From Magnetococcales bacterium (GTDB lineage Bacteria > Pseudomonadota > Magnetococcia > Magnetococcales > UBA8363), in contig JADGCN010000008.1 in the NCBI GenBank assembly GCA_015228975.1, forward strand, positions 1-59,613: a stretch of 59,613 nucleotides of DNA, read 5' to 3'. Both the position numbers and the translations under genes were made by a program. Under the pieces are notes generated by a model, which was not told where the DNA came from, ran no database searches, and saw nothing but the letters and a program-made list of their open reading frames with translations. This document shows positions 30,928 to 56,442 of this stretch, piece after piece. Numbering within the stretch: position 1 is the first letter of the stretch; each line of letters opens with the position of its first letter.

Positions 30928-32196
30928 ATGAGTACTGAAAGAATGCCGTTGAACACAACGATGCTGAATGAGTTGGAGTCTGGTCCGTGGCCAAGTTTTG
31001 TCACCGATCTGAAGGAATATTCCAAGAAGCGGCCCGTTGTTGCGCAACTTTTGAATCAATTGGAAGAATCCTACCAGAATAAATGGAATTATTGGCAGGG
31101 CAAGATCCTCAATGCCCCCGGTTACGGTGGCGGCATCATCGCCCGGGTGTCCGACAAAGCGAGCAAATATCCCGGTCTGGCCAATTTCCACACCGTGCGC
31201 GTCATTGAACCGCCGGGTTGGGTGTACAGCACCGATGCCCTGCGCGATCTGGCCGACATCGCCGAGAAGAATGGCGCCGGCATCCTGCAATTCCATGGCA
31301 TGTCGGGTGACGTCCTCCTGTTGGGTTTTGACGATGCCGGCTCCCTGCAATGCGCCGAAGACTTGATGAGCAATGGTTGGGACATCGGCGGTTCCGGTGC
31401 CGCCATGCGGACCCTGCAATGCTGCGTTGGTCAGGCCCGCTGCGAAATGGCCTGCTACGACACCATGAAGATGACCAAGCATATCACGGACACCTTCATC
31501 CACTATCTGCACCGCCCTGAGTTCGTCTACAAGTTCAAGTTTAAACTTTCCGGCTGTCCCAACGATTGCGCCAATGCCATCGTCCGCTCTGACATGCCCA
31601 TCATCGGTACCTGGCGGGGTGACATGCAGGTCAACCAAGCCAAGGTTGCCGAGTTCATCGAACAAAAGGGGATGGAGTACCTGATCGATAACGTCCTTAC
31701 CCGGTGTCCCACCCGCTGCTTGTCGGTTCGCGGCAAGGAATTGGTTGTGGACAACAGCGATTGCGTGCGTTGCATGCACTGTATCAATGTCATGCACAAG
31801 GCGCTCAAGCCCGGTAAAGATCGTGGGGCCACCATCCTGGTCGGCGGCAAGCGGACCCTCAAGATCGGTGACACCATGGGATCGGTTCTGGTGCCGTTCG
31901 TGAAGCTTGAAACCGACGAGGATCGGAGCAATTTCACCGACTTTGTCGAGAAGGTGTGGGAATTCTGGAATGACAATGGTATGGACCACGAGCGGATCGG
32001 TGAATTCATCTACCGTATCGGTATGTTGACTTTCCTTAAAGGTGTTGAGATCGAGCCTGATCCGCGGATGATCAGCCGTCCCCGCACCACGTCGTACATC
32101 AAGTTTGAAGAGCTGGGGCCAAGCAGGTTTGAAGGTGAACGGGTGCAAAATCCCCCCGTTTGGAATCGTGAATCGGAGTCTCGGGAAAGCCTGTAG
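30928..32196 (+). CDS. dsrA: Dissimilatory sulfite reductase alpha subunit DsrA (oxidative type)
   Basis: About 422 aa, normal length. Sirohaem/[4Fe-4S] ligands lie in CCVGQARCEMAC and SGCPNDCANA, and a ferredoxin-like insert has CVRCMHC after CPTRC. The alpha2beta2 enzyme with DsrB acts on sulfite and sulfide; with DsrL it usually works in the oxidative direction, turning stored or bound sulfur to sulfite in the cytoplasm. Preceded by 270 bases without a gene and a modest ribosome site (GAGGAG). The codon pattern (many C-ending codons, unusually regular) differs from flanking genes and suggests high expression. Confidence 0.97.
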   Translation: MSTERMPLNTTMLNELESGPWPSFVTDLKEYSKKRPVVAQLLNQLEESYQNKWNYWQGKILNAPGYGGGIIARVSDKASKYPGLANFHTVRVIEPPGWVYSTDALRDLADIAEKNGAGILQFHGMSGDVLLLGFDDAGSLQCAEDLMSNGWDIGGSGAAMRTLQCCVGQARCEMACYDTMKMTKHITDTFIHYLHRPEFVYKFKFKLSGCPNDCANAIVRSDMPIIGTWRGDMQVNQAKVAEFIEQKGMEYLIDNVLTRCPTRCLSVRGKELVVDNSDCVRCMHCINVMHKALKPGKDRGATILVGGKRTLKIGDTMGSVLVPFVKLETDEDRSNFTDFVEKVWEFWNDNGMDHERIGEFIYRIGMLTFLKGVEIEPDPRMISRPRTTSYIKFEELGPSRFEGERVQNPPVWNRESESRESL

Positions 32197-32251
32197 GATT
32201 CTCGTCTGTCGCCAACACGGTAAGGTTCAATATAAAGGAGTCAAGAGCGTT

Positions 32252-33325
32252 ATGAGTCAACCCACGTTGGCGCCCCGGGACCAGGGCGCCCCCGATTACA
32301 CCAAGTATTTGCACCCACTCATGGCCAAGAATTATGGCAAGTGGGACTACCATGAAAGGTTGCGCCCAGGCGTACTGGTCCATGTAGCCGAAAATGGTGA
32401 CAAGCTCTATACCGTCCGGGCCGGTTCACCCCGGACCATGAGTGCTGATACGGTTCGCAAGGTGTGTGCGATCGCCGACAAGTATTGCGAAGGCCATCTG
32501 CGTTTCACCACCCGGTCGAACATTGAGTTTTTGGTGGGCAAGAAAGAAAACCTGGATCCCCTGATTCAAGCCGTCGAGAAGGATTTGGGCTGGCCTCTGG
32601 GTGGCACCGGACCTTCGGTGTCCAATATTTCCCATACCCAAGGTTGGTTGCATTGTAACCTTCCAGGGTCCGATGCGGCGGGTTCGGTGAAGGCGTTGAT
32701 GGATGATCTCATCCACGACTTCAAGCATGAAGAACTCCCCAACCGGGTCCATATTTCCTCGTCGTGCTGCCAGATCAACTGCGCCAGCCACGGTGACATC
32801 TCCATCATTGTGCAACACCATCATCCACCTCGCATCAACCACAAAAACATGCAGATTTGTGAGTTGCCCAAGGTGGTTGCCATCTGCCCCGCTGCGGCTA
32901 TCCGCCCAGCGGTGGTTGATGGTGTGGAAACGGTGGAAGTGGTGGAAGAAAAATGCATGTATTGCGGCGCGTGCCACGGGCAATGTCCCAGCATGGAAAT
33001 CCGGGATGCCCAAACCGATACCCTCTCCATTTGGGTCGGTGGCAAGATGTCCAACGCCCGCAGCGCACCGACCTTCATGAAACTGGCTGTCTGGGGTATT
33101 GCCAACAATCCCCCGCGTTGGCCTGAAGTGTCGGCTGCGGTCAAGACAATCCTGAAGGCCTATAAGGAGGGTGGCAAACCCTGGGAGCGTCTTGGGGAGT
33201 GGATCGAAAGGATCGGTTGGCAACGATTCTTTGAAAAGACAGGCTTTCCGTTTACCCGCTATCATATCGATGATAGCCCGGAAGCCCTTTCTACTCTCAA
33301 CAGATCGGCCATGCTCCGACTCTGA
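32252..33325 (+). CDS. dsrB: Dissimilatory sulfite reductase beta subunit DsrB
   Basis: About 357 aa. Conserved cofactor ligands are visible in SSCCQINCASHG and the ferredoxin motif CMYCGACHGQCP. The ribosome site AAAGGAG precedes the ATG at 32252; an earlier in-frame start overlapping dsrA is rejected. Encoded 55 bases after dsrA. Together with DsrA it forms the sirohaem enzyme of the Dsr pathway. Confidence 0.97.
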   Translation: MSQPTLAPRDQGAPDYTKYLHPLMAKNYGKWDYHERLRPGVLVHVAENGDKLYTVRAGSPRTMSADTVRKVCAIADKYCEGHLRFTTRSNIEFLVGKKENLDPLIQAVEKDLGWPLGGTGPSVSNISHTQGWLHCNLPGSDAAGSVKALMDDLIHDFKHEELPNRVHISSSCCQINCASHGDISIIVQHHHPPRINHKNMQICELPKVVAICPAAAIRPAVVDGVETVEVVEEKCMYCGACHGQCPSMEIRDAQTDTLSIWVGGKMSNARSAPTFMKLAVWGIANNPPRWPEVSAAVKTILKAYKEGGKPWERLGEWIERIGWQRFFEKTGFPFTRYHIDDSPEALSTLNRSAMLRL

Positions 33326-33366
33326 TGAAAGTTTGGTAACCTGTTCACTCCGGGAGGAATCCTTTA

Positions 33367-35244
33367 ATGCTAGAGTCGACTATACTGACACAGATTTCCA
33401 GGGAGGATCTGGAAGCCAAGCTCGGGCGTGGTGTTGTTGAAGAAATTGTTGTTCGTAATGGCACTAGTTGGAAGTGTCCCACCTATGTGCAAAGAATTCC
33501 TCCCTGCCGGGATGCGTGTCCCAGCAGTGAGGACATTCGTGGCTATCTGACGACCATTGCCCAGGCTGGAATGCGCAAGGTGAGCCACGATGTCGCTTTG
33601 GATGAAGCGTGGGAACTCTTGACCGACAAAAATCCGCTGCCATCCACCCACGGGCGCATTTGTCCGCATCCGTGTGAATCAGGATGTAATCGGCAGCACT
33701 TGCCGGATGGTTCCGTAGCCATCAACAACATGGAACGGTTTATTGGCGACCATGGTCTTAACCGCAAATTGAAGTATAAAAAATTGACCGACAAAGTGTC
33801 GGGCAAAAAAGTTGCGGTGGTGGGGTCTGGACCGGCCGGGCTATCTTGTGCTTACCAACTGGCACGCAGAGGGCACAAGGTAACCATCTTTGAAGCGTTT
33901 GCGAAGACCGGCGGCATGCTCAGGTATGGCATTCCTTCCTATCGTCTTCCGGACGATATCCTTGATGCAGAAGTACAAAACATCCTCGATCTGGGTATTG
34001 AATTGAAGTGTAATACCCGTATCGGTCGGGACATTTCTTTCGACGACCTGAGAAAGCAGTTTGACGCCGTCTTTTTGGGCCTGGGTGCCCACAAAGGGAG
34101 CGTCATGAACATTCCCGGGGAAAATTCCGCGAATGTGTTTACTGCGGCCAGCTTCCTTAATCGGGTCAACTCCGGGGCCAAGGTGGAAATCGGTTCCCAG
34201 GTGATTGTCATCGGTGGTGGTGACAGCGCCATGGACGCCGCACGTGTTTCATTGCGGTTACAGGCGGAATTGGATGCCGCCGATGCCTCGGGGGATGCCA
34301 AAGCCTATGATCAGGCTTGGGAAGAAGCCGACAAAAAAGCGTTGCATGATGAAGAGACCGTTTCCATTGAAAAAACTGCCCTGGATTCGGCCCGTTCGGC
34401 CATCAGGGTGTCGAAGTATACCAAAGTGACCGTGTTGTATCGTCGGACCAAGGATGAAATGCCGGCGATCGCCAAGGACGTGGTGGAAGCAGAACACGAA
34501 GGGATTCATTTTGAATTGTTGACCGCTCCCGTGGAGATTGTCACCGAAGGTGGGCGGGCAACGGGTGTCAAGTGCATTCGCATGGAACTGGGTGCCCCGG
34601 ATCAATCGGGACGGCGGCGTCCAGTCCCAGTCAAGGGGTCTGAATTCACCATTGCCTGTGATACCATCATCATGGGCATTGGTCAGGTTCCCGAGTTGGA
34701 AAAAGGGATGGAAGCCTTGGCCGATAAATCGGGATGGCTGAACATTGACAAAACCTTTACCACGGGGACCCCGGGGGTGTTTGCAGGAGGGGATGTCATC
34801 GGTTTGGGCATTTCCACCCGCTCCGTGGGTCATGGACGTCTTGCGGCACGGGCCATTCATGCGTTTCTGATGGGCGAAAACATGAATCTGGTTCACAAAG
34901 CCCGTCCGGTCAAGCATACGGAGATGCGTTTGGGTTTCTACCCGGCGATGCCACGGAATGAAGAAAAGCAGATTCCGGTGGACGAGGCGGTTACAACCTT
35001 CAAGGAAACAACGCAGACCATCCCCTTTGAGCAGGCCTTGTCTGAATCCAAACGGTGCATGAGTTGTGGATTGTGCTTTGTGTGCGATCAGTGCCGTATC
35101 TATTGTCCCAGGGAGGCGATTGAGCGTGATTTCAAACGTCCCCAGGGCAAAGTGATGCATACTGACTATACCCGTTGTAATGGGTGTCATGTGTGTCATC
35201 AGGCCTGTCCCTGCGGTTATATTCAGATGGGGATGGGGTTGTAG
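33367..35244 (+). CDS. dsrL: DsrL, NAD(P)H-linked iron-sulfur flavoprotein of the Dsr pathway
   Basis: About 625 aa. N-terminal Fe-S part with CPTYVQRIPPCRDAC and CPHPCESGC (GltB-small-subunit-like), an FAD fold with VAVVGSGPAGLSC, an NAD(P)-binding fold with VIVIGGGDSAMDAA, and a C-terminal ferredoxin with CMSCGLCFVCDQCRIYC and CNGCHVCHQAC. DsrL moves electrons from the DsrAB reaction to NAD(P) in sulfur oxidisers and is required for that direction. Ribosome site GGGAGG. Ends before a terminator; its last 56 codons reappear at 36088-36253. Confidence 0.96.
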   Translation: MLESTILTQISREDLEAKLGRGVVEEIVVRNGTSWKCPTYVQRIPPCRDACPSSEDIRGYLTTIAQAGMRKVSHDVALDEAWELLTDKNPLPSTHGRICPHPCESGCNRQHLPDGSVAINNMERFIGDHGLNRKLKYKKLTDKVSGKKVAVVGSGPAGLSCAYQLARRGHKVTIFEAFAKTGGMLRYGIPSYRLPDDILDAEVQNILDLGIELKCNTRIGRDISFDDLRKQFDAVFLGLGAHKGSVMNIPGENSANVFTAASFLNRVNSGAKVEIGSQVIVIGGGDSAMDAARVSLRLQAELDAADASGDAKAYDQAWEEADKKALHDEETVSIEKTALDSARSAIRVSKYTKVTVLYRRTKDEMPAIAKDVVEAEHEGIHFELLTAPVEIVTEGGRATGVKCIRMELGAPDQSGRRRPVPVKGSEFTIACDTIIMGIGQVPELEKGMEALADKSGWLNIDKTFTTGTPGVFAGGDVIGLGISTRSVGHGRLAARAIHAFLMGENMNLVHKARPVKHTEMRLGFYPAMPRNEEKQIPVDEAVTTFKETTQTIPFEQALSESKRCMSCGLCFVCDQCRIYCPREAIERDFKRPQGKVMHTDYTRCNGCHVCHQACPCGYIQMGMGL

Positions 35245-37133: not shown

Positions 37134-38624
37134 TCACGGTTGGTTTGTTTGGATATGTTGCAGCCAGGATGCGGCGGTTGCCGATAGTTGGTCCAGGAGA
37201 AGATGGGGGAAAATACCCAACAGGATGACCACGCTGGCCAATGTCAGGACAACACCCAGTTCCCGTTTTGTCAAATCTTCCAGGATGCCATCGGTTTCGC
37301 TGAGGGCCGGACCAAAGAAACATTTTCTGAATAAATTCAGAAAATAACCGGCCCCGAGAATCATTGTTGCCAAGGCGGCCAAGCCGACGCCGGTGTGGGC
37401 GTCAAGGATACCCATGAGGAGGAGGAATTCGGCGGGAAAACCACTGGTTCCGGGGATGCCCATGGAGGCCAAGCCCAGGAGTAAATACAGTGCGGTCAAC
37501 ATGGGCATGCGGCGTGCCAGTCCCCCCAGGTTGACCGCCTCGGTGGACTGGGTGCGGTGTTGGATGAACCCGGTGAGGAAAAACAATCCCGAGGTGATCA
37601 GGGAAAAATTGATCAACTGAAAAATGGCCCCCTGCAGGCCGGAAAGATTCATCGCCGCCAAGCCCAGGAGTACCAGACCGACATGGCTGATACTGGCATA
37701 GGCCAATAGGGTCAGCAGATTGGTCTGGGACAATGCCAGAAAAGCCCCATACAAAAGACCTGCGGTGCCCAGGCCGGTGAGCAGCCAATGGTATTCGCGC
37801 ATCGCCAGGGGGGCCAGGGGGATTAAAAAGCGTAATATGGCGTAGGCGCCCAATTTAAGGCCGGTCATGATGGCCAGAACGACAACAGGCCCCTCCCTGG
37901 CCATGGTTGGCAGCCAGACGTGCAGGGGCACCATGGGTAATTTGGGGGCCAAGGATGCCAGCAATAAAAAGAACAGCAGCGTCTGGAAAGGTTTGGAGGC
38001 GGGAGTGGCCAGGAGGTCGGGCAAAGAGAACGTCAAACCCTGGCCATGGACCAAGTGCGCATGGTCCACTGCGAGCAGGACAAAGGCCATCAGCATGGGA
38101 ATGCCACTGGCGATCATCAGCAGGGTGTATTGTACCGCTGCGTAGCGTCTGTGGGGACCCACCCCCCACAAACTGACCAAAAAGTAGACGGGGATCAGGG
38201 CCAATTCCCAGAAAAAGAAAAACAGGATGGTATCCAGGGCCGAGAAGATTCCGTAGGTGACGGTTTTGAGCAACAGCAGCAAGGTATAGTACAGCCGGGG
38301 CATGGTTGTGACCCGGTTCCAGGAGCTGAGGATGGTTCCCAGGAAGAGCAGTGCGTTCAGCGGCAGGAACCAGACCGATAGCCCGTCCACGCCCACCCGA
38401 TAGAAAATAGGGATGGAAGGGATCCAGGCATGGGTTTCCACCCATTGGAACCCCGGCACCCGGGCGTCAAATCCCAGGAGGATGATGAGACTGACCAGGA
38501 GTTCCAAGATAACGGTGATCAGTGCAATCCGGCGTATTTGGCAACTATTCCGGGCGCGCCATATGAAGAGGGCCGAAAGGGGGAACATCACCAGAAGCAG
38601 GCTGATCAAGGGTAATTTGTCCAT
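37134..38624 (-). CDS. NuoM-like antiporter subunit of a DAB-type cluster
   Basis: About 496 aa with about 14 membrane segments of the proton-conducting membrane transporter family. The TM5 glutamate is intact: FFFWELALIPVYF with E140. GHxHxP-type helix VPLHVWLPTMAREGP is present. Last gene of the five-gene unit that contains DabA. It starts five bases after the preceding gene ends. It probably couples an ion gradient to inorganic-carbon uptake rather than being part of respiratory complex I, since no other nuo genes are here. Confidence 0.85.
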   Translation of the reverse strand: MDKLPLISLLLVMFPLSALFIWRARNSCQIRRIALITVILELLVSLIILLGFDARVPGFQWVETHAWIPSIPIFYRVGVDGLSVWFLPLNALLFLGTILSSWNRVTTMPRLYYTLLLLLKTVTYGIFSALDTILFFFFWELALIPVYFLVSLWGVGPHRRYAAVQYTLLMIASGIPMLMAFVLLAVDHAHLVHGQGLTFSLPDLLATPASKPFQTLLFFLLLASLAPKLPMVPLHVWLPTMAREGPVVVLAIMTGLKLGAYAILRFLIPLAPLAMREYHWLLTGLGTAGLLYGAFLALSQTNLLTLLAYASISHVGLVLLGLAAMNLSGLQGAIFQLINFSLITSGLFFLTGFIQHRTQSTEAVNLGGLARRMPMLTALYLLLGLASMGIPGTSGFPAEFLLLMGILDAHTGVGLAALATMILGAGYFLNLFRKCFFGPALSETDGILEDLTKRELGVVLTLASVVILLGIFPHLLLDQLSATAASWLQHIQTNQP

Positions 38625-38629
38625 CGGGT

Positions 38630-40165
38630 TCACCAGGGTGACCTCCCTGTCGGCAGGGGGTGAGTGAACAAGGCCCCAAGTCCTTCCAAGGAGTGATCGA
38701 TCAGGAGTATCCATGGTTCGGAGTAAAACCCCAGGGCCAGCAGGGCGAACACCACCATGACGGCAATGGCGCGCTCCTCAAGTTTGGGTTGCTCCATGGC
38801 TATTTTAAGATCTTTCTGGTTTTTGGCCAGGAAGGTGCGGTGAAAGGCCCAGAGCAAAAAGCCGGCGGAGACCACGTTGCCCAAGGCGGCGAGAACGGTT
38901 ACCAAGGCGCCGAAGCGGCCAATAGCGGCTTCCAATATCAGATGAACGGCGTCAAAACCGGGTGTTCCGGGCATGCAGATGATGGAGAGACCGGAGATCA
39001 GGAAGACGCTGCCGATGATGGGGAAATGGTCGAACAAACCGCCGAGTCGATCCATGAACATGGTTTTGGTGCGACGGTGGACGAAGCCGGCGGAAAAGAG
39101 CATGCCGGCGGTGGCGAGACCGAGGTTGACCGATAGGAGTACGGTTCCTTTCAGGGCGCGGTGGTCCAGGCTGAACAGTCCGATGGTGAGGATACCGGTG
39201 TGGCTGATGACGGCGTAAGCGAGCAGGCGGCGTATATTGGCCTGCATCAGGGCGAGAACGGCGGCATAGAAGATACCGGTAACGGCAATGGCAACGACAT
39301 ATTTGTGCCAATATTGAACGGCATTGGGGACCAGGGGCAGGACAAAGCGCAGGATGCCAAAGATGCCGATTTTAAAACTCAGGAGAAAGACGGGGACGAC
39401 GGCCACCATGCCGTGTTGCATGACATCCGGCAGCCAACCGTGCAACGGAAACAAGGGGATCCGTATGGCTAAGCCGTAGAACAGAAGGAAAAAGACCACC
39501 ATTTGCATGGGGGTATCCATGGGTGTTTTCAGCAGATCCACTAGGTCAAAACTCCAGATTCCCCCGGTTACCTGGTTGTGATGCCACCCCAACAACCCGG
39601 CTCCCAGGAGTAACAGAATCAGGCTGATGGCCATGAACTGGGTAAAGCGGATACGTGGAAAAATAGTGCTTTCGGTTGTGGACCAGGAGTGCAACAGGAG
39701 GCTGACGAGGATCATCTGGAGCATGGAACCCCAGGCGAACAGGACGATGTCGAGGACAAAGAACTGGAACATGAGCGTCGCTTCCTGCAGGAACACCACG
39801 ATGAGGAAGCGCGATTGGGGTTGGATGCGCTGGGAATGCCCGTAGAGGATGATCATCAGGGTCATAAAGCTGGTCAGGAGGGCGAACAGGGCACCAACGC
39901 CATCGACGGCGGCATGGTATTGAAAGGGGCCATAAAGTTGAATGCGCTCGGCATATTGCAAGGTTGCGGTTTGCGGATTGAAGTCGGCGACCAGGGTGAT
40001 GGCGAGGAACAGGTGCAGAATGGATCCCATGATGCCAAGCAAGAACAATCCAGATTTGTTGCGTAACAGGGCAATGGCCAGGGCCAGGGCAGCGGGAAAC
40101 AATTGCAACAACCCCAGGAGCGGCAGGGAGGCGTGGAGCGACCAGTGGATTTCGTTGTAGGGCAT
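38630..40165 (-). CDS. NuoM-like antiporter subunit with altered TM5 site
   Basis: About 511 aa, about 14 membrane segments. It matches NuoM over the segment LDIVLFAWGSMLQMILVSLLL, but where NuoM-type proteins have WE it has WG, at residue G146. The TM8 lysine helix (LLSFKIGIFGILRF) and FPLHGWLPDVMQHG are present. The subunit may therefore not conduct protons by the normal path and may be structural or modified. It is the fourth gene of the DAB-type unit. Confidence 0.83.
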   Translation of the reverse strand: MPYNEIHWSLHASLPLLGLLQLFPAALALAIALLRNKSGLFLLGIMGSILHLFLAITLVADFNPQTATLQYAERIQLYGPFQYHAAVDGVGALFALLTSFMTLMIILYGHSQRIQPQSRFLIVVFLQEATLMFQFFVLDIVLFAWGSMLQMILVSLLLHSWSTTESTIFPRIRFTQFMAISLILLLLGAGLLGWHHNQVTGGIWSFDLVDLLKTPMDTPMQMVVFFLLFYGLAIRIPLFPLHGWLPDVMQHGMVAVVPVFLLSFKIGIFGILRFVLPLVPNAVQYWHKYVVAIAVTGIFYAAVLALMQANIRRLLAYAVISHTGILTIGLFSLDHRALKGTVLLSVNLGLATAGMLFSAGFVHRRTKTMFMDRLGGLFDHFPIIGSVFLISGLSIICMPGTPGFDAVHLILEAAIGRFGALVTVLAALGNVVSAGFLLWAFHRTFLAKNQKDLKIAMEQPKLEERAIAVMVVFALLALGFYSEPWILLIDHSLEGLGALFTHPLPTGRSPW

Positions 40166-40180
40166 GGAGTTTATTGCTCT

Positions 40181-41737
40181 TTAAAGAATGATCACAAAGG
40201 TCAGGGCAATCATGAGGATGAGATAACGGGGTTGGCTGAGTAAATGATCGATGAGTATCAAGCGTTTGCCAACGAGTTGCAAAACTTCCATCAAACCAGC
40301 CCCGCCCCCCTTCAGAATCATATTTTCTTCAAAGGAATACAGGATGCTTGCCAATCCTTGAATCATCTTGCCAGCCACGCCGGTGCTGCGATCAACCGCA
40401 TAGCCGGAAGCTGGAATGGCACCGGTTTGCTGTTCTTGCCATTGGGCCAGTGTAGAGATGGCATTGGCATGGGCGGGAAGGCCTGCCAACGGGGTGATGG
40501 CCCGGTGTTCCAGGAGACGCATATCGGCAGCCAGTTTCATGGTTGGGGCCACGATCATGGCATCGCCCAGATGTTCCAACCAAAATCGTTGCAGGAGAGC
40601 CGTATGCAATCGTTGCCAACGGGTGAGCCAACGTGGGGCCGGCGGGGCGGGACGATCCAAATCATCCATCAGGGATGGGGCGTGCAGGAATTGCCAGGCA
40701 CGGAAACTGGCATGCAGACCCAGATGCCATGCCGCCAGGGTAAACCAGCCGAGGCCACACCAAAGAAACATGAGCCCGATTTGTGAGATGGTGGCGAATA
40801 TCAGGGAGCTTTTCACATCGCTCTGTCCCTGGGCGGTGATCCAGCCATAGAGTGCGGTGACAAAGCCGATGGCGGCGATGGCTGTCAGAAGGCTCGGGGT
40901 TTGTTGCAGCATGGGTTCCAGGCGCAGAGTCAAAATGACCCCGGCATGGACCATCAAGGAGCCGTAGAAAATGGCACTGGATGGCGTAGGTCCATCCATG
41001 GCGCGGGCAATCCAGGAGGAAAAGGGGATTTGCCCCGATTTGGCGAGGGCGGCGCACAGAAACCCCAGTCCCACCAGGGTGGCACCCATCGTTTCCACCT
41101 GGGGTGCCGCACGGGCTATCTGCCTCCAATCGACACCGCCGCACCAGGTGAATGCCGCAAAAATGCCAAAAAGAAAGCCGGCATCGCCAAAGCGGTTGGT
41201 GATCAGGGCGCGATTGGCGTTTTTCGTGGCGGTGTTGCGCTCAAAGGCGTAACCGATCAGCAAAAAGGAACTGACCCCTGCCAGTTCCCACCCCACAAAG
41301 ACCAGAAGGGCGTTGCCAGCCAGGACGATCAATTGCATGGCACCGATAAACAGGTTCAAGATCATGAAAAATCTTAAAAATCCAGATTCACGGTGCATGT
41401 AGGGGATGGAAAAACGGATAGTCAACAGGGAGATCCAGGCCATCAGTGTGGCCAGAGACAGGCCCAAGCCATCCAGCATCAAGCCCAGGGGAACGGTATA
41501 GGTTCCTGCGCCAAACCATTCCCCCGAGTGGAGTGCCCCTGAGGGACCGAACAATACCGCTTTCACATCGAGCAGGAGGAGGACGAGCAATGCGCCCAGG
41601 GTGGCTGCAAAGGAGATTTTCCCCACGGTTTTTTCTTTTGCTTCGTGCCAAACCGGGTGGAACAGACGTTCCCCGGCCAGGGTCAGTGCCGCTCCCCAGG
41701 GGAGAAAGATGGCCAGCCATGCGCTGTGATCAACCAT
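40181..41737 (-). CDS. dabB: NuoL-like subunit, probable DabB partner of DabA
   Basis: About 518 aa, multi-span NuoL/MrpA-family protein with GWELAGVSSFLLIGY (E151 in TM5) and KSGQIPFSSWIARAMDGPTPSS. It follows DabA directly, with an 8-base overlap, the position of DabB in known DAB operons. DabB forms the ion-conducting membrane half of the DIC accumulator; which ion is used cannot be read. Confidence 0.82.
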   Translation of the reverse strand: MVDHSAWLAIFLPWGAALTLAGERLFHPVWHEAKEKTVGKISFAATLGALLVLLLLDVKAVLFGPSGALHSGEWFGAGTYTVPLGLMLDGLGLSLATLMAWISLLTIRFSIPYMHRESGFLRFFMILNLFIGAMQLIVLAGNALLVFVGWELAGVSSFLLIGYAFERNTATKNANRALITNRFGDAGFLFGIFAAFTWCGGVDWRQIARAAPQVETMGATLVGLGFLCAALAKSGQIPFSSWIARAMDGPTPSSAIFYGSLMVHAGVILTLRLEPMLQQTPSLLTAIAAIGFVTALYGWITAQGQSDVKSSLIFATISQIGLMFLWCGLGWFTLAAWHLGLHASFRAWQFLHAPSLMDDLDRPAPPAPRWLTRWQRLHTALLQRFWLEHLGDAMIVAPTMKLAADMRLLEHRAITPLAGLPAHANAISTLAQWQEQQTGAIPASGYAVDRSTGVAGKMIQGLASILYSFEENMILKGGGAGLMEVLQLVGKRLILIDHLLSQPRYLILMIALTFVIIL

Positions 41738-44700
41738 GGATCCTCTCCTGCCTGGGGTGGATCAGTGCCGGTCCCAGATGGTTGCGATGTCCCCGGTACC
41801 AGTCTGGTGAGCATGCGACTTCGGGGACGGGAATCGGATTGCTTTCCCAGACGACCCAACCCCGTTGCGGTTCAAACATGTGAATCTCCGGGCCATGGGG
41901 GTTTTTCGCCGCCAACAGCACCCAACCGTTGCCCACCCACTCCTGCAACAATGGTTGGCGCAAATAGATTTCGGTCAGAATGCGCGTCTCCGCTTCAATA
42001 ATGAGCTGCAGGCGCATGGCCTCGTGTATTTCGATCATCTGCAACGGCAGTCCGGTCCGTAAATCCGATTCCGTACCATCCATGATGCCAAAGAAACCGG
42101 TCAGGTTGTGGGTGACTTTGGAGCCACATCCCAGGCGTTCGTTGTTGACGGTCGAAAAATAGTATTCCAGGTTGATGCCACCACCGACAGGGGTGACGTT
42201 GAGGAGGATTCTTTCCAAAACCTCCCCGTTGGGATCGGTTTCCGGGTTGTAGGAAATCAGGAATACCCGCCGATCCAGAAACAAGCCGCGACTGAAACTG
42301 CGGCGTCCGACGAAGGCGGCGGCATTGGTGGCATGCCCCAATTCGGGACGCGCCTGACTGACATCCAGCCGGCGTCCCTGCATATGCATGAGTGCGGTTT
42401 CCGGATCGGGATCATCCGGGGCGGAGGCCACCTTGCGACACCGTTCCTGGGCACTCATGCGGGCGGCGTGTTCCAGATCGGCGATGCACTGTGCCAAGTT
42501 TGTGACCGCGTATGGTGGCAGGAGCGAGCGGTCAAACCAAGTGAATTCTTCATCGCAGGTATTGTGATTGGCACCGACGAACCAGGTATCATCCGGGATG
42601 ACGATCCCGTCTTTGATCAATAGGGTACGGACTTCAGGGCGATTGGCCATGGCGGCGAACACCCGGGCGTTGGGACCGCCGTGGCGACCGGAACAGGCAC
42701 CGCAATCGTATGCGGCACGATGGGGATTGTTTTTGCTGCCGGAACCGTGGCCCATCAGGATCACCAAAGGGGCGAAGTCCGAAGTCAAACCGATGGTGCG
42801 TAAAAACCGCCCAACCCGTTCCGCCTGTTCCTGATCGGTAAATCCAGAACGATTTTGTTCTGGAGAGGCGATACTGCCATCATCGGTGGCGGTCAGCGTG
42901 ATGGTGGTATCCAAGGTGGGTAGCAGACGGGCATGGACTGCCTGCATCATGCGGCCATGCTGTTGCGGACGCCATTGTTTGAAGGTCAGGGCAACGAGGA
43001 GCCAGGGTGCCGCAAGGGTCAGCACCCCCATGCTGCGGAGTAATCCATGGCGTGTGGCGTTGAACAGGAGATCCTTGAAGCGCGACAGTTGGGTTCGGCT
43101 GCGGTCATAGATTCCTTTTTGGGCCTCTTCCCGAGGGGTGACGCATTCATGAACCCGGTGCGAAGGCTTGTCCACGATGGGACAGAGGGCGGATTCAAAC
43201 GTGTCGTCCAGCCCTTTCCAATTGATGGCGATGCCAAAAAAACCGGCGGCACCCAGTGTTTCGATGGCGGGATTGTGTTCTTCCAGATGCCGGCGTATCC
43301 CTTCCTCGCGATCATCCATGCAAAATACAATCTGACTTTTGGGACGCTCTTCGCGTCTGGCCCAGGCCCCCTGACCATGGTTAAGGATGACGGCAGCGTA
43401 CAGGTGGTCCCGATAGTGATATTCATAGGCTTGCAGCCAAAGAAAACCGAAGACTTCCGGGGTCAGGAGATCCAGGCAAGCCAGCATGTGTTCGATTTGG
43501 GGCAGGGAGAGTTCGCGGATGCCGCGACCGCAAAGCCCCAAATGTTGCGTCAGCCGGAACAGGCGCCAACCATTGTGGTGCAGGGTATGCGTGACCGTTT
43601 GACCGGTGGGTTGACTGCGGTACCAGGTCCACATCACGTGCGCCACGGCGCGCCACTCATCGATCCCCGGTGGCGGATCCGTGTTGATCAATTCCTGGGC
43701 ACGATGGATGAAATAATCGGGCAAGGCTTGGTTGAACAGGGCATGCCGCACCAGCAGCTCTGATTTGTTGTTGTTAAAATACCAGCGCAGGAAAAAAAGA
43801 TTGGGGGCGATTTTCCACGTTTTCAGACACAGACGCCGGGCAAACAGCCGTTCCAGAATCAGGCGTACCGCCAGATATTCGGCCAAATCAAAACGGGCGG
43901 TGGAAGCGGCATGGTGGGGATGGCTTTGGCGCCAGGCAAACATGCCTGACCACCCGGGAATTTCCTGACACAGCCGTTCCAAATAATTGGGCCACAGTTC
44001 TTCGTCCAATCCCAGGGCGAGCATTTCCGCCATGATGGAATCCAAGGGATCATCCGGCAATTCGCCCAACTGTTCTTCCCAATCGGGCATTTCAGCAAAA
44101 ACCCACCCCATATCGGTATGCGCTCTTTGGCGCCAGAAAGTGTAGAATCCCTGTATTCCGATATTTTCCTGCCAGGCACCCACCCCCAGATCCATGTAAT
44201 GGGTCAGGTAGCGGATCAGTGTCGGTTGGATGGTATCGAGAATATCGTGTCCGGTCAGGGCCAGCAGGAAACGCCGCAAGGTCCATTCCCGACCGATTTT
44301 ATGGATCATATTTTCCAGCAGGGCATCGGCTTCCATGCGTACTTGGGTGCGTACCCGGAATGCCCCTTCCTCTTGCGAGGGATCTTTGTGGGCGAAATCG
44401 CTGATCATCGCCTCGGCCTGATCGGCTGACAGGTCCAACAAGGCTTCCGGATGGACCCACTCTTCGTTCAGTCCCAACACGGCGAGGCATTGGCTCCACA
44501 GGTCGAACACGGCTGCGGTTTCCGAGGATAGACCACTCTCTTGTACAATGTTCTGTCCGATTTCCGGGGGAAGATCCTCTTGAAAACGATACCGGGCTTG
44601 TTTTTCTTCCAGATGCCAGGTGAGTTTCAGGGCGGAAAGGGGTGCCATATTCCACTGCAGCCCCGCCAAAATCACATCTTTTCGATAAAGTTGCCGGTTG

Positions 44701-45017
44701 CCCAAACGGGCGATCATGGCATCACCGTCCAGAGTGGGCATGTTGTGGATCGCCTGCAACAATCCTTCCCGGGTGATGCGTCCCTGGGCGAACAGTTCGC
44801 GAAACCGTTGGTCGGGGAGAAAAGGGATGATGCCGGTTTCTGACCGTGCCAGGGATAACGCCTTGAGAAAGGGGTGTTCCTGATAGGCGTGCAAGGTGTT
44901 GTGGTGGACGAAATCCTTGAGGGGGGCCTGGGCCGTCAGGCGGTGTTCCATGTGCGCAATGGCATGGCGCAGGCGGTGCAAAATCTCATGGTTTTCCGAA
45001 TGGGGATGGTTGCTCAT
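41730..45017 (-). CDS. dabA: DabA, inorganic-carbon concentrating subunit (DUF2309)
   Basis: About 1095 aa, cytoplasmic, no signal. The start is MSNHPHSENHEILHRLRH, and FVHHNTLHAYQEHPF is the conserved N-terminal phrase. The carbonic-anhydrase-like zinc site can be placed: CMDD with C566 and D568, GHGSGSKNNP with H757 and YDCGACSG with C772 (C775 next to it). Spacing H757 to C772 is 15, as in characterised DabA. The DAB system takes up CO2 and hydrates it unidirectionally to bicarbonate. The five-gene unit contains one DabA and four antiporter-like proteins, more than the usual DabA plus DabB. No regulator is adjacent. Confidence 0.93.
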   Translation of the reverse strand: MSNHPHSENHEILHRLRHAIAHMEHRLTAQAPLKDFVHHNTLHAYQEHPFLKALSLARSETGIIPFLPDQRFRELFAQGRITREGLLQAIHNMPTLDGDAMIARLGNRQLYRKDVILAGLQWNMAPLSALKLTWHLEEKQARYRFQEDLPPEIGQNIVQESGLSSETAAVFDLWSQCLAVLGLNEEWVHPEALLDLSADQAEAMISDFAHKDPSQEEGAFRVRTQVRMEADALLENMIHKIGREWTLRRFLLALTGHDILDTIQPTLIRYLTHYMDLGVGAWQENIGIQGFYTFWRQRAHTDMGWVFAEMPDWEEQLGELPDDPLDSIMAEMLALGLDEELWPNYLERLCQEIPGWSGMFAWRQSHPHHAASTARFDLAEYLAVRLILERLFARRLCLKTWKIAPNLFFLRWYFNNNKSELLVRHALFNQALPDYFIHRAQELINTDPPPGIDEWRAVAHVMWTWYRSQPTGQTVTHTLHHNGWRLFRLTQHLGLCGRGIRELSLPQIEHMLACLDLLTPEVFGFLWLQAYEYHYRDHLYAAVILNHGQGAWARREERPKSQIVFCMDDREEGIRRHLEEHNPAIETLGAAGFFGIAINWKGLDDTFESALCPIVDKPSHRVHECVTPREEAQKGIYDRSRTQLSRFKDLLFNATRHGLLRSMGVLTLAAPWLLVALTFKQWRPQQHGRMMQAVHARLLPTLDTTITLTATDDGSIASPEQNRSGFTDQEQAERVGRFLRTIGLTSDFAPLVILMGHGSGSKNNPHRAAYDCGACSGRHGGPNARVFAAMANRPEVRTLLIKDGIVIPDDTWFVGANHNTCDEEFTWFDRSLLPPYAVTNLAQCIADLEHAARMSAQERCRKVASAPDDPDPETALMHMQGRRLDVSQARPELGHATNAAAFVGRRSFSRGLFLDRRVFLISYNPETDPNGEVLERILLNVTPVGGGINLEYYFSTVNNERLGCGSKVTHNLTGFFGIMDGTESDLRTGLPLQMIEIHEAMRLQLIIEAETRILTEIYLRQPLLQEWVGNGWVLLAAKNPHGPEIHMFEPQRGWVVWESNPIPVPEVACSPDWYRGHRNHLGPALIHPRQERIHG

Positions 45018-45028
45018 GATCGGCCACC

Positions 45029-46495
45029 CTAAAATCCTGGAGGAAAAGAGGCGCTGAAGGTGGCCACCGAAGCGGTGAGAATACGAATGACCGGATCGGG
45101 ATACCAACCGAACAGGAGTGTTGTCGCCGCCAAGAGGGAGGTGGCGGTCAGTTCAAAGGGGGTCAGGTCGGTCACGGAACGCATGTTGGGGCGTACTGGC
45201 CCGGTAAAGAGTCGGCCAATGGTACGAAAGGCGTAGGCGGCACTGATGAGTACTGACAGCGATAACAGGACGATGACCCACCCCCAGCGTTCGTAACCGC
45301 CGATCAGGGTGTGCAGTTCGGCGATGAAACCCACGGTTCCGGGAAATCCCATGGCGGCCAGCAGGGCCAGGACGGTGAACAGGGCGAAGCGGGGAGTGAT
45401 TTGGATCAAGGAGCTGTAGTTGGTGATATCCCGGGTATGGGTTCGTTCGTACAGCAGGCCGATCAGCAAAAACAGGCTGCCGGCGACCAGACCATGGGCG
45501 AGCATTTGCAACGTTGCTCCCATCATGGCGGTTTGATTCAAGGATGCAATGCCCAGGACGACCACGCCCATGTGACTGACCGAGGAGTAGGCGATCATTC
45601 GTTTTAGGTCATGCTGGCGCCAAGCGAGGAGACCGCCGTAAAGCAGGCCAACAAACGCGACCGTGGCCAGTGCCGGTTGCAACATCACCATGGCGTGCGG
45701 CAACGTCAAGGCGGCGCGGATCAGGCCATAGGCACCCATTTTCAGAAGGATGCCCGAGAGGAGGATGCTGATGGGGCTGGGGGCTTCAACATGGGCCAGG
45801 GGGAGCCATCCGTGCAGCGGTACCAAGGGAATTTTCACCCCGAACCCAAGGAGGAATCCAGAGAAGATCAACAGTTGGGTCCCCGGGGACAAGCCGGCGG
45901 CCCCGCTGGCAATGGAACTCATCTCAAAGGAATGGTTGGTGGAGGTATCGAACAGCACCAGAAGGCTCATCAGCATGAAAACCGATCCCCCCATGGTGTA
46001 CAGGACGAAATTGATGGCGGCACTATCCCGATTGGCTCCACCCCAGCGGCTGATGAGAAAAAACAGCGGGATGAGCGTCAACTCCCAAAACAGGTAGAAC
46101 AGTGCCCAGTCCTGGGCCATGAACACCCCGAGAATGGCGGTTTCCAGGACCAATACCAATGCGTAATAACTCTTGATCCCTTGCTGGATGCTGCGTGAGG
46201 CGATGATGGCAATCAGGCAAAGCAACGTGGTCAAGATGACCATGGGATAGGAGAAACCATCGATTCCCAGGGCATAGTAGGTCCCCAGTTGGGTATTCCA
46301 GGAAAAACGTTCGCTCAACTGCATGGAGCTGGATGCGGGATCAAACCAATACCAAAGTCCCAGGGACATGATAAGGGCGCTGAGGGCGTGAGCCAGGGCG
46401 GCACCACGAATCATTCCGGTATTGTTTCCCGGGATGATGGCGATGGCCAGGGCACCGACAAGAGGGATGATCAACAACAGGCTCAGCAGCAACAA
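45029..46495 (-). CDS. NuoM-like antiporter subunit, first gene of the DAB-type unit
   Basis: About 488 aa, TTG start. About 14 membrane segments, TM5 motif LFWELTLIPLFF (E138) and VPLHGWLPLAHVEAPSP. Starts an operon of five genes on the minus strand (this gene, dabA, dabB, two more antiporter-like genes). It is separated from speA upstream by 121 bases. Complex I genes are absent, so a role in carbon uptake with DabA is more likely. Confidence 0.85.
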   Translation of the reverse strand: MLLLSLLLIIPLVGALAIAIIPGNNTGMIRGAALAHALSALIMSLGLWYWFDPASSSMQLSERFSWNTQLGTYYALGIDGFSYPMVILTTLLCLIAIIASRSIQQGIKSYYALVLVLETAILGVFMAQDWALFYLFWELTLIPLFFLISRWGGANRDSAAINFVLYTMGGSVFMLMSLLVLFDTSTNHSFEMSSIASGAAGLSPGTQLLIFSGFLLGFGVKIPLVPLHGWLPLAHVEAPSPISILLSGILLKMGAYGLIRAALTLPHAMVMLQPALATVAFVGLLYGGLLAWRQHDLKRMIAYSSVSHMGVVVLGIASLNQTAMMGATLQMLAHGLVAGSLFLLIGLLYERTHTRDITNYSSLIQITPRFALFTVLALLAAMGFPGTVGFIAELHTLIGGYERWGWVIVLLSLSVLISAAYAFRTIGRLFTGPVRPNMRSVTDLTPFELTATSLLAATTLLFGWYPDPVIRILTASVATFSASFPPGF

Positions 46496-50388: not shown

Positions 50389-51087
50389 TCAGCCCAGTAG
50401 CAGGCGATAGCCGACCCCGGATTCGGTGAGGATATGTTTGGGTCTGTTGGGATCGTTTTCCAGCTTGCGGCGCAGATGCGACATGTAGACCCGCAGGTAA
50501 TGGATGTTTTCGGTTTGGTTGGGACCCCAAACGTCACGCAACAGGGTCCGATGGGTCAGGACGCGTCCTGCGTTGGCGATGAGGGCGGTAAGGAGACGGT
50601 ATTCAATGACGCTGAGATGCACCATGGTACCGCTGCGGGTGATGGTACGCTCGCTCAGATTGACCTCCACATCCCCAAAGCGGGTGATCGCAGGATCTTC
50701 CGCATGGGGGCGGGCCGCACGCCGCAGCAAGGCGCGCACGCGGGCCAACAATTCCGGGATGCCAAACGGTTTGGTCAAATAATCATCAGCTCCGGCGTCC
50801 AAGGCGGTGACCTTCTCCGATTCTTGGGTGCGCGCCGAAAGGATTAAAATGGGTAAATGGCTCCAGGAACGCATATCCCGGATAACCTCGACGCCATCGC
50901 AGTCCGGCAGGCCCAGATCGACGATGACCATGTCGGGTCGACGGGTTGCCGTTTCGATCAAACCACGTTTGCCGGTTTCCGCATCGACGACGGCATAGCC
51001 TTCGGCTTCCAGAGCAGCACGCACAAATCGGCGAATTTGCGGTTCATCTTCGATCAGGACAATCTGGAATGGCGGCAGATCAGGCAT
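50389..51087 (-). CDS. kdpE: KdpE, response regulator of the kdp operon
   Basis: About 232 aa: receiver (IVLIEDEPQIRRFVRAAL, phosphoacceptor in IVDLGLPDCDG, DDYLTKPF) and OmpR-type winged helix ending NRPKHILTESGVGYRLL. Activates kdpFABC under low potassium or high osmolarity. Overlaps the stop of kdpD by 8 bases. Last gene of the operon. Confidence 0.95.
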   Translation of the reverse strand: MPDLPPFQIVLIEDEPQIRRFVRAALEAEGYAVVDAETGKRGLIETATRRPDMVIVDLGLPDCDGVEVIRDMRSWSHLPILILSARTQESEKVTALDAGADDYLTKPFGIPELLARVRALLRRAARPHAEDPAITRFGDVEVNLSERTITRSGTMVHLSVIEYRLLTALIANAGRVLTHRTLLRDVWGPNQTENIHYLRVYMSHLRRKLENDPNRPKHILTESGVGYRLLLG

Positions 51088-53773
51088 TGATATTATCTTC
51101 GGGCAGGAGTGGCGGTGGGGATCCCAATGGCAAGTGGATTGTGAAACAGGCACCACCCGCGGGATGGTTTTCGGCGCGAATCGTCCCATGGTGCGCCTCG
51201 ACAATGGCACGCACAATGGTGAGACCCAGGCCAAAACCGGATGCGGACATCTCCATTTTGCCCCGCTGGAACATTGTGAACAATTTATTTTCCAAACCAG
51301 GTGGCAGACCGGGACCATCGTCTTGAACGACAATTTCGACAAACGCATCGTGAATCCGGGCAACGATGGCAACCGTGCTGCCCGGTGGCGTGTGACGTGC
51401 GGCGTTTTCAAGGAGATTATTGAAAACCCGCGTCATTAATGCGGTATCCATCGGGATCAACGGCAGGTCTTCGGGGAGATTGATTGTTGTATGATGACGG
51501 CTGAGGACTGCGGCACAGTGTTCCAGAGACAAACCGATGATTTCTTCCAATGTTTGCCATTCCTGGTGCAGTGTGACCGTGCCCATTTGCATGCGTGCCA
51601 TGTCGAGAAGATTGTTGGCCATGGAGGTGATGCGTGTCACTTCATCGCGAATGGCCCGCGCCAAGCCGGCATGAGGTTCGGCGAGTTCGGGCGTGGCGAG
51701 GATCATGGCATCAGCCAACCCTGATACGATGGTCAGGGGTGTACGCAAATCGTGGGAGACCGCCGACAGGAGGGAATTGCGCAATCGTTCCGACTCGACA
51801 CTGATCTGCGCGTCACGCGTTATGGTGACGTAGTGGACACGCTCCAGGGCGATGGCGATCAGGGTAACGCACGTATCCAACATGTGTTGCTGATCAAGGG
51901 GGAGATCCCAGGGTCTCCCTTCCGGGGAAATGGCCAAAACTCCGCAACGTGTGGAAGAGGCCTTGATCGGGACGTAGAGGACTTGGGCCGAAGGCAGGGT
52001 ATCGGTCCCCAGGCCGGCACTTCGTTCATGGTCGTGGCTCCACTGGACGATACCCTCATCGACATCCTTGAGGGTTGAAGACCCTTCTGCCAGGACCATG
52101 CCCCCCGCCCCCCCCGGCAGGTAAATCGCCACTGCGACATCAAATCCCCGTTTAAAAAAAGTGCGGCCTATTTCGACGATTTGCTCGATGCTTAAAGCTC
52201 TGGAGAGTTCTCGCGACATCTCAAACAACGCCCGCATGCGTTGCTCGCGTTTTCTGGCCACGGCGGCCTGGAACTGTAGGCCGGCGGTCAATTGTCCCAC
52301 CACCAGGGCCACTGTCAACATGACCCCGAAAGTAACCAGATATTGGGCGTCCGTTACCGCGAAAGAAAAATAGGGGGGGACGAAAAAAAAGTCGAAAGAG
52401 GCCACCGACAGGAACGCTCCGAGGATGGCGGCCCATTTTCCCAGACGTACCGCGATGAAGACCACCGCCAGCAGGAAAATCATGACGATGTTGGCGGCGT
52501 CCAGGACGCCACGCAACGGTGTGCTGACTCCTGTCACCAGGGCCGCGATTATGAAGGTCTCCCAAATGGAACGCCAAAAGTGGGGTGTTTTTCCTGATGC
52601 GCGACTGGGGGAGGAGGATGGTGTTCGTGGTTCATCATCGCGAGCAACCTGAAGGATTTCCAGATCCGCTGCCATGCGACCGAGTTTTTCGGCAAAGCCG
52701 TGTTGCCAGGGCAGGCGCCGGTAGCGGTCCCTGCCGACCAAGAGGGTGCCCAGGTTGTTTTCCCTGGCATAGTGGATGGTTGCCTCTACGGCGTCTGGGG
52801 CTGTAAGGCTTGCGGTATGTGCGCCAAGATCCCGGGCTAGTTTGAGAATGCCCAGGATGCGGGATTTTGCGGTATCCGGCAGGGATTGCATGGCCGGGGT
52901 CTCGATGGAGATGGCGTGCCAGGGGGCACTGGTCTGATTGGCGCGGCGGGCGGCGCGGCGCACCAATTTTTCGCTGTCTGGTCCTGGCCCGACGCATACC
53001 AGGACCGCTTCCCGAGTTGGCCAGACGGTCGCAACCGATTTTTCCCGTCGCCAGGCGCGCATGTCACCATCGACCCGATCAGCAGCGCGACGCAGGGCCA
53101 GTTCCCGCAGTGCCAGAAGGTTGCCTTTACGGAAAAAATTGTTTTCGGCACGTTGGGCTTGTTGGGGAAGATACACTTTACCTTCCCGTAACCGTTGCAT
53201 GAGGTCATCGGGTGGCAAATCCACCAAAACCATTTCATCCGCTGTGTCGATCACGTGATCGGGCACCCGTTCCCAGACCCGCACGCCGGTAATCTGGCCG
53301 ACAACGTCGTTGAGGCTTTCGACGTGTTGCACATTGACGGTGGTGAAGACATCAATGCCCGCCATTAGTAATTCATCGATATCTTGCCAGCGCTTGGGGT
53401 GCCGGGAACTGGTGACGTTGGAGTGGGCCAGTTCGTCGACCAGAATCAATTGCGGACGAAGCGCCAAGGCGGCATCCAGGTCAAATTCCTCCAGGGTGTA
53501 GCCCTTGTAGTCGATGATACGGCGCGGCAGGATCTCCAGACCTGCCATCAAGGTTGCGGTGTCCTCCCGTCCATGAGTTTCGACGATGCCCACGATCACC
53601 TTGACGCCCTGTTCGCGCAATACGCGTGCGGCGACGAGCATGGCGTAGGTCTTACCGACGCCGGGGCAGGCGCCAAAAAAGATTTTTAGCTTGCCCCGGC
53701 GTTCCTTGGCGTTGGCATGCTCAATACGCGCCAGCAAGGCATCTGGGTCAGGACGGGAGGTTTCGCGATTCAT
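51080..53773 (-). CDS. kdpD: KdpD, potassium-responsive sensor kinase
   Basis: About 897 aa, canonical architecture: N-terminal KdpD domain with Walker A GACPGVGKT (about residues 33-41) and ILVDELAHSN, a USP-like domain, four membrane segments (about 400-500), a GAF-like region (about 520-640), and HisKA/HATPase (SHDLRTPL; GFGLGLTIV). Senses potassium and turgor-related signals and phosphorylates KdpE. ATGA overlap with kdpC upstream. Confidence 0.96.
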   Translation of the reverse strand: MNRETSRPDPDALLARIEHANAKERRGKLKIFFGACPGVGKTYAMLVAARVLREQGVKVIVGIVETHGREDTATLMAGLEILPRRIIDYKGYTLEEFDLDAALALRPQLILVDELAHSNVTSSRHPKRWQDIDELLMAGIDVFTTVNVQHVESLNDVVGQITGVRVWERVPDHVIDTADEMVLVDLPPDDLMQRLREGKVYLPQQAQRAENNFFRKGNLLALRELALRRAADRVDGDMRAWRREKSVATVWPTREAVLVCVGPGPDSEKLVRRAARRANQTSAPWHAISIETPAMQSLPDTAKSRILGILKLARDLGAHTASLTAPDAVEATIHYARENNLGTLLVGRDRYRRLPWQHGFAEKLGRMAADLEILQVARDDEPRTPSSSPSRASGKTPHFWRSIWETFIIAALVTGVSTPLRGVLDAANIVMIFLLAVVFIAVRLGKWAAILGAFLSVASFDFFFVPPYFSFAVTDAQYLVTFGVMLTVALVVGQLTAGLQFQAAVARKREQRMRALFEMSRELSRALSIEQIVEIGRTFFKRGFDVAVAIYLPGGAGGMVLAEGSSTLKDVDEGIVQWSHDHERSAGLGTDTLPSAQVLYVPIKASSTRCGVLAISPEGRPWDLPLDQQHMLDTCVTLIAIALERVHYVTITRDAQISVESERLRNSLLSAVSHDLRTPLTIVSGLADAMILATPELAEPHAGLARAIRDEVTRITSMANNLLDMARMQMGTVTLHQEWQTLEEIIGLSLEHCAAVLSRHHTTINLPEDLPLIPMDTALMTRVFNNLLENAARHTPPGSTVAIVARIHDAFVEIVVQDDGPGLPPGLENKLFTMFQRGKMEMSASGFGLGLTIVRAIVEAHHGTIRAENHPAGGACFTIHLPLGSPPPLLPEDNINA

Positions 53774-54351
53774 GGTTTGGCTCTGCCCTGGTCCAACGCT
53801 TGGTTGAGGGTGAGGATGTTGACACGTGGTTCACCCAGGATGCCAAAGGTGCGTCCTTCGGTATGTTGAGTGACCAGATCGCCCAGCGCTTGTTCGGACA
53901 ATCCACGTGCCTGTGCTACCCGGGGAATCTGCCATTGGGCTGCTGCCGGACTGATGTGGGGGTCCAGGCCGCTGGCTGAGGCGGTTACCAGATCGACCGG
54001 GATGGGAAGTTTTTGTTGCGGATTGCTTTCCTTAAGTGACGTTATGCGGTCTTTGACGATGGTTTCCAGATCGGGATTGGTTGGCCCGGTATTGGAGCCG
54101 CTGGAGGAGCCGGCATTGTACGGCATGGGCGTGGTGGCCGATGGACGGCTCCAAAAATATCCGGCATCGGAAAAGGGCTGCCCGATCAGGTTGGACCCAA
54201 CAATTGTTCCCTGATGGTGTATCAGACTACCATGGGCCTGATAGGGGAAGAGTGTTTGCGACAATCCCGTAATCAGCGCCGGGTAAAGCCCTCCGGTCAA
54301 CAAGGTCATCAGGAGCAGCATGAACAGGGCGGATTTGAATTCTTTGAGCAT
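53770..54351 (-). CDS. kdpC: KdpC, potassium-transporting ATPase subunit C
   Basis: About 193 aa, one N-terminal membrane segment then the periplasmic domain with LIGQPFSDAGYFWSRPSATTP and YNAGSSSGSN, all KdpC signatures, and VTASASGLDPHISPAAA. Stabilises and assists KdpFABC assembly. ATGA overlap with kdpD. Confidence 0.96.
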   Translation of the reverse strand: MLKEFKSALFMLLLMTLLTGGLYPALITGLSQTLFPYQAHGSLIHHQGTIVGSNLIGQPFSDAGYFWSRPSATTPMPYNAGSSSGSNTGPTNPDLETIVKDRITSLKESNPQQKLPIPVDLVTASASGLDPHISPAAAQWQIPRVAQARGLSEQALGDLVTQHTEGRTFGILGEPRVNILTLNQALDQGRAKP

Positions 54352-54362
54352 GGGTCGTGTCC

Positions 54363-56426
<2,064 letters not shown>

Positions 56427-56442
56427 GGGTGTGACTCCTCAA

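Follow-up and report, generated by a model that had tools for sequence, protein, structure and literature searches.

Coupling of a carbonic-anhydrase-like subunit to NuoL/NuoM-type channels is known from the cyanobacterial NDH-1MS complex (CupA with NdhD3/F3), in which ferredoxin provides the redox drive through a complete complex I and the carbonic anhydrase (CA) subunit is unrelated to DabA. The DIC-accumulating complexes (DACs) have been described with one, two or three subunits in the 2026 paper on DAB2 (PMC13144422). DAB2 of Halothiobacillus neapolitanus (DabA2-DabB2; PDB 9rd0, PMC13144422) is encoded by two genes, that of DabB being the first, and the structural model of its ion-CO2 coupling rests on a few residues: the finger Glu444 and Leu658 of DabA, and Ile151, which takes the place of the TM5 Glu in DabB2 (PMC13144422). 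DAB1, represented here by the plasmid locus L236 of Nitrobacter hamburgensis with PII and carboxysome genes nearby, has a long DabA1 (about 1040-1060 aa), in which Leu658 and Glu444 are kept, and a small extra protein rather than NuoM subunits.

Operons that join ybcC/dabA with nuoL and nuoM have been known since 2017 (PMC5700660). In clade C of these operons ybcC (COG3002) lies upstream of nuoL, often together with COG1008 (NuoM) and COG0659 (SulP), and this clade very probably corresponds to the group described below. The 2017 COGNAT paper made a genome-context remark on clade C, suggested a reverse mode and put forward a correspondence between the count of membrane genes and that of the ions transported, but it gave no subunit count, analysis of coupling residues or carbon role (PMC5700660). 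We found no description of a five-gene DAC, or of the residue changes reported here, in the open-access literature searched. Arms in which NuoL is joined by several modules of the NuoM type, and in which the pumping residues are conserved, are found in complex I, in the 2M complex I of Nitrospira and in the five-pump Complex_I_3 of Manganitrophaceae, for which the idea of a lateral helix has also been discussed (PMC9040806).

The DNA analyzed in this study (the window) is a 59,613-nucleotide stretch of a Magnetococcales genome assembled from metagenomic data (3.75 Mb in 234 contigs). It contains five genes on one strand (Table 1), transcribed in the order Ma-DabA-DabB-Mb-Mc, which according to Pfam and NCBIfam models encode a DabA, a single NuoL-like protein and three proteins of the NuoM type. 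The five-gene unit proposed in the earlier note is thus real. With the likely starts of DabA and Mc, the spacings between consecutive genes read from the sequence are 11, -8, 15 and 5 bp. The cluster is flanked upstream by a speA-like decarboxylase gene and downstream by a pterin dehydratase gene; genes of complex I or Mrp are not found next to it, and a complete nuo locus, with one gene each for L, M and N, is located on another contig, which bears out the claim that the unit is free of complex I genes. The closest named record is the Magnetococcales MAG HA3dbin1, with 96-99% identity across all five proteins.

Table 1. Positions in the window of the genes forming the cluster, listed in order of transcription.
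Feature	Position	Strand	Assignment
Ma	45029..46495	(-)	NuoM-type antiporter subunit, 488 aa; TIGR01972 491.6 bits
DabA class II	41730..45107	(-)	ORF from TTG 45107; PF10070 E=1.4e-228
DabA likely start	ATG 45017	(-)	1095 aa
DabB class II	40181..41737	(-)	NuoL-type; PF00361+PF00662
Mb	38630..40165	(-)	re-wired NuoM paralogue, 511 aa; TIGR01972 above cut-off
Mc	37134..38714	(-)	NuoM-type antiporter subunit; TIGR01972 415.3 bits
Mc likely start	ATG 38624	(-)	496 aa

The host is a magnetotactic sulfur bacterium: the window also carries dsrA/dsrB-type sulfite reductase genes and a gene for a dsrL-like oxidoreductase (positions 30928-35241), which point to a sulfur oxidizer. A potassium uptake operon (kdpD-like sensor kinase, P-type ATPase, kdpA; 51083-58251) is situated a few kb from the cluster.

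The operon has the hallmarks of a DAC, i.e. a PF10070 DabA with a Cys2His and Asp-Arg site, as in DAB2, and an adjacent NuoL-type DabB which groups with known DabBs and, like that of DAB2, has most of the conserved proton-path residues. The small membrane protein encoded between DabB1 and DabA1 in all DAB1 loci seen is absent. In contrast to complex I, there is no peripheral redox arm and no NuoH, J, K or N, a carbonic anhydrase being present instead; neither MrpA with its C-terminal extension nor MrpB, C, E, F or G is encoded in the operon.

DabA was found in 28 of the 41 Magnetococcales genomes searched. The order Ma-DabA-DabB-Mb-Mc was observed on one contig in 23 Magnetococcales relatives besides the window, at identities down to about 41-43%, and in two further genomes the five genes are divided by contig ends. 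In another two (G010 and G021) Ma-Mc-DabB-Mb are found together and DabA resides on a separate contig (L222/L223 versus L038/L044), so that the adjacency of DabB and Mb has been retained despite the relocation of DabA. A scan of GTDB genomes with an Mb alignment yielded 317 stretches encoding an Mb relative, and in all of the 80 loci kept from named genomes (Thiodiazotropha, symbionts of the tubeworms Escarpia and Lamellibrachia and of Solemya, Accumulibacter, Sulfuricella, Hydrogenophilales, Venteria and others) the gene order is the same, as far as the contigs reach. Such a recurrent order indicates that the cluster did not arise by chance.

Since these 80 loci were chosen through Mb, the association of the genes was judged from surveys based on DabA only. 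Among genomes of the GTDB class of G198, a NuoM-type gene or a fused Mb adjoins 11 of the 12 DabA loci of the five-gene kind (class II, with His at the Leu658 position), versus 2 of the 49 class I loci (Leu658), the two exceptions being a complex I on the opposite strand and an Mrp hybrid. In a phylum-wide survey none of the 27 two-gene DAB loci had a NuoM-type neighbor. Membership of the operon in a complete nuo or mrp operon of close relatives, named in the earlier note as the case that would speak against a separate system, was looked for and not seen; the loci of relatives exclude it for class II.

The earlier note had placed the system between complex I/Mrp and DAB. The phylogeny of the four antiporter-like subunits which it proposed was calculated as a quick tree (SH-aLRT support only), and on this tree the system is not an evolutionary intermediate: DabB is sister to other DabBs (support 91), Ma to NuoM (90) and Mb to Mc (97), and all three M proteins fall within the NuoM clade (98). 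MrpD, or Mrp in general, is thereby rejected as the source of these three proteins.

In DabA (residues numbered from the ORF start at 45107; the DAB2 reference being the 9rd0 sequence and PMC13144422) the zinc site is complete, as the earlier note had also claimed: C596, D598, R600, H787 and C802 correspond to C351, D353, R355, H524 and C539 of DabA2, and the zinc ligands and the Asp-Arg dyad are kept in every class II DabA that covers the region. At the position of Leu658, which is strict among 150 homologues (PMC13144422), all 97 class II DabAs have His (H925 in the window). In beta-CAs the equivalent position is taken by a Gln or His, to which stabilization of the transition state is ascribed, and substitutions of Leu658 were tolerated in DAB2 (PMC13144422), so the effect of the His in class II is uncertain and may be small.

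The finger Glu444, which is essential in DAB2 (PMC13144422), is Glu in 29 of 29 class I DabA rows of the first set. In no register does the class II finger (residues 658-712) have a column in which an acid is conserved (56% at best), and this absence carries our statement about the finger, because MAFFT and phmmer disagree on the residue opposite Glu444 (T697 or R691); a few class II rows have Asp at the aligned column. Basic positions are well conserved (K710 in 98% and R686 in 96% of class II DabAs). An AF2 model of DabA (pLDDT 78.6) contains a helix hairpin (658-684/689-712), and a fold search with this model against the PDB gave no significant match, neither DAB2 nor a beta-CA being among the best hits.

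The DabA tree has three clades, namely (i) DAB2-like, (ii) DAB1-like and (iii) class II (support 100), the five-gene clade being closer to DAB1 than to DAB2. For a basal class II DabA (L321:7008-10241, genome G369), neither a DabB nor an antiporter is encoded within about 7 kb.

The match of DabB to NuoL models is confined to residues 6-358. It comprises NuoL-like TM1-11 with the TM5 Glu (Glu151), R182, D185 and K233. The TM5 Glu (E144 of NuoL) is present in 101 of 102 class II DabBs versus 0 of 29 in class I; in DAB2 the position is occupied by Ile151, and restoring Glu halves growth (PMC13144422). This Glu lies near the contact with the neighboring antiporter in complex I, and its retention suggests that class II DabB also has such a neighbor. 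TM12-15 of NuoL are absent from class II DabB; the counterpart of this region in DAB2 holds the DabA finger (PMC13144422).

The C-terminus of DabB is NuoL-HL-like (a helix, more helical segments and a final single TM helix, 503-517), but a profile comparison with NuoL gave an alignment for no more than the beginning of the lateral helix (probability 74%, E 2.8e-5), so that the reading of this tail as a "clamp helix" is only suggestive. In a Foldseek search the DabB model found E. coli NuoL first (E=5.9e-20), in an alignment that could span the whole chain across the gap; the AF2 models are single chains, and much of the DabB C-terminus has a pLDDT of about 40-75. Thus, DAB2 has Leu658, Glu444 and a DabB without the TM5 Glu and with the TM12-14 that hold the finger, whereas class II has five genes, His at position 658, a finger in which no acid is conserved, a kept TM5 Glu and a DabB that misses TM12-15.

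The M subunits were compared with the pumping residues of E. coli NuoM (E144, K234, K265, E407). Ma has all four (E138, K221, K252, E393), as do 89 of 89 orthologues, and Mc keeps E170, K258, K287 and E429 (numbering relative to the ORF start, 38714), with the pumping residues present in 100-101 of 101 orthologues; both are predicted to be pump-competent. In Mb the TM5 E144 and E407 are lost, the TM7 K234 is replaced by Arg235 (Arg in all 110 Mb sequences) and K265 is kept. New residues appear in its TM12, at positions where Ma, Mc and NuoM mostly have hydrophobic side chains: D405 (106 of 110), H408 (110 of 110) and E412, whose count of 110 of 110 is biased by its lying partly inside the scan pattern. 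H408 was found in 10 and E412 in 8 of 10 loci not selected on Mb, and E412 in 24 of 24 relatives from loci not selected on this residue. Of the four antiporter-like subunits described earlier, Mb is re-wired and probably not a standard pump, its canonical pumping residues being gone, so that to speak of four pumps would overstate the case.

We propose, with a probability of roughly 0.6, that the operon encodes an extended DAC, a third class besides DAB1 and DAB2, in which ion-driven hydration of CO2 would be powered through a complex I-like arm. We infer an assembly in which DabA, a cytoplasmic beta-CA-like enzyme, is seated on the NuoL-like channel DabB; Mb would complete DabB, and the putatively pump-competent NuoM-like modules Ma and Mc would extend it, resulting in a complex I-like membrane arm without redox. 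The direction of flow would be inward, with H+ (or Na+) passing through the DabB/Mb pair as well as through Ma and Mc and its movement relayed via a row of charged residues to DabA, where conversion of the substrate CO2 to HCO3- would become one-way. A stoichiometry of more ions per CO2 would permit a steeper bicarbonate gradient, or function at low ion-motive force. In a fuller form, which we regard as tentative and put somewhat below even odds, the system would be a vectorial CA placed on four antiporter subunits that form a redox-free row like that of complex I, the coupling acid having moved from the DabA finger (Glu444 of DAB2) to TM12 of the re-wired NuoM (D405, H408 and E412 of Mb), and the transition-state His of beta-CAs being back in the active site.

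In two genomes DabB and Mb form a natural fusion of 1045 aa (L293:10299-13436 and L294:2353-5490), which carries the diagnostic residues of both halves and is located near a class II DabA, Ma and Mc being absent. In locus L199 a single divergent antiporter-like (Mb-like) protein, with the Mb-type TM7 Arg, is encoded after DabA and DabB. DabA, DabB and Mb thus look like the core, to which Ma and Mc may have been added as pump modules. Together with the fixed gene order and the matching residue changes, the fusion upholds the view that the extra subunits belong with DabA and DabB.

The same minimal loci indicate that some lineages can do without Ma and Mc, and they fit an alternative in which one operon encodes two machines, a compact DabA-DabB-Mb CO2 hydrase and, apart from it, a cation/proton antiporter made of Ma and Mc, by which the pH or ion balance would be restored when hydration releases protons; NhaD Na+/H+ antiporter genes, which we observed near some clusters, agree with this as well. 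We consider this alternative unlikely, given the strict order of Ma and Mc across deep divergence and the lack of Mrp small subunits in the operon; moreover, NuoM-type proteins are not known to function on their own.

The NhaD neighbors would also suit Na+-coupled bicarbonate uptake in place of proton-driven CO2 hydration, as proposed for the DAC homologue MpsAB, a putative Na+/HCO3- symporter (PMC13144422). However, a complete Zn/Asp-Arg carbonic anhydrase site is retained in class II, and DAB2 takes CO2 and needs no sodium (PMC13144422), which makes this mode improbable. The pump-competence predicted for Ma and Mc is compatible with the reverse mode put forward in 2017 for ybcC-nuoL operons, in which an exergonic DabA reaction powers ion extrusion (PMC5700660), but DAB2 biochemistry indicates PMF-driven hydration (PMC13144422) and, by our reasoning, the energy of CO2 hydration is too small to pump several ions, so we hold a reversal to be very unlikely. 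Least likely of all is an ordinary two-subunit DAB beside vestigial, drifting or mis-associated NuoM duplicates. The loss of three canonical residues from Mb would fit this reading, but their replacements are nearly invariant, the gene order is fixed, two genomes encode Mb fused to DabB, and Ma and Mc keep every pumping residue.

Class II is a natural experiment, since Glu444, Ile151 and Leu658 are changed together and ion-channel modules are added, which offers a direct test of the DAB2 coupling model. It also raises the question of whether the added antiporter units shift the ion/CO2 ratio, a question that runs parallel to that of the 2M complex I. The proposed five-gene DAC seems to be widespread, as a carbon uptake system that has received little study, among sulfur-oxidizing symbionts and free-living chemolithotrophs.

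In other genomes the neighborhoods of class II loci suggest a connection with inorganic carbon: the gene for a SulP permease is found near 32 of them, mostly just upstream and on the same strand, a CsoSCA-like protein (weakly similar to the carboxysome carbonic anhydrase) near 12, and an LCIB-like protein, below the cut-off, near 6. A motif scan for Rubisco within about 10 kb of the clusters found none, but it was insensitive, having missed a LysR that is present. Neither Rubisco nor CODH/ACS was detected in any Magnetococcales genome searched; ATP-citrate lyase is missing from the genus of the window (G000-G007), most relatives outside the genus having it, and DabA showed no positive co-occurrence with this lyase across Magnetococcales. 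A link to carbon fixation is consequently only tentative there. Genes of the 2-oxoacid:ferredoxin oxidoreductase type are present besides the dsrAB/dsrL-like genes, and the genus may use another variant of the rTCA cycle; alternatively, the system may provide bicarbonate for anaplerotic reactions.

A separate case of a DabA with a multi-antiporter arm was encountered in the GTDB class of G198 (L342:8874-19500, genome G330). Its DabA (950 aa, zinc site intact) is part of a DAB/Mrp hybrid operon with the order SulP/STAS-DabA-MrpE-MrpF-MrpG-MbhD/E-MnhB-MrpC-like-MrpD-like-NuoL-NuoM, of which no further example was found among 85 genomes of the order of G330. Finally, two uncharacterized neighbors of class II clusters (L129:1002-2144 and L133:13950-15017) are weakly similar to LCIB-type and carboxysome-type carbonic anhydrases and, on this similarity, possibly represent new CA-like families.
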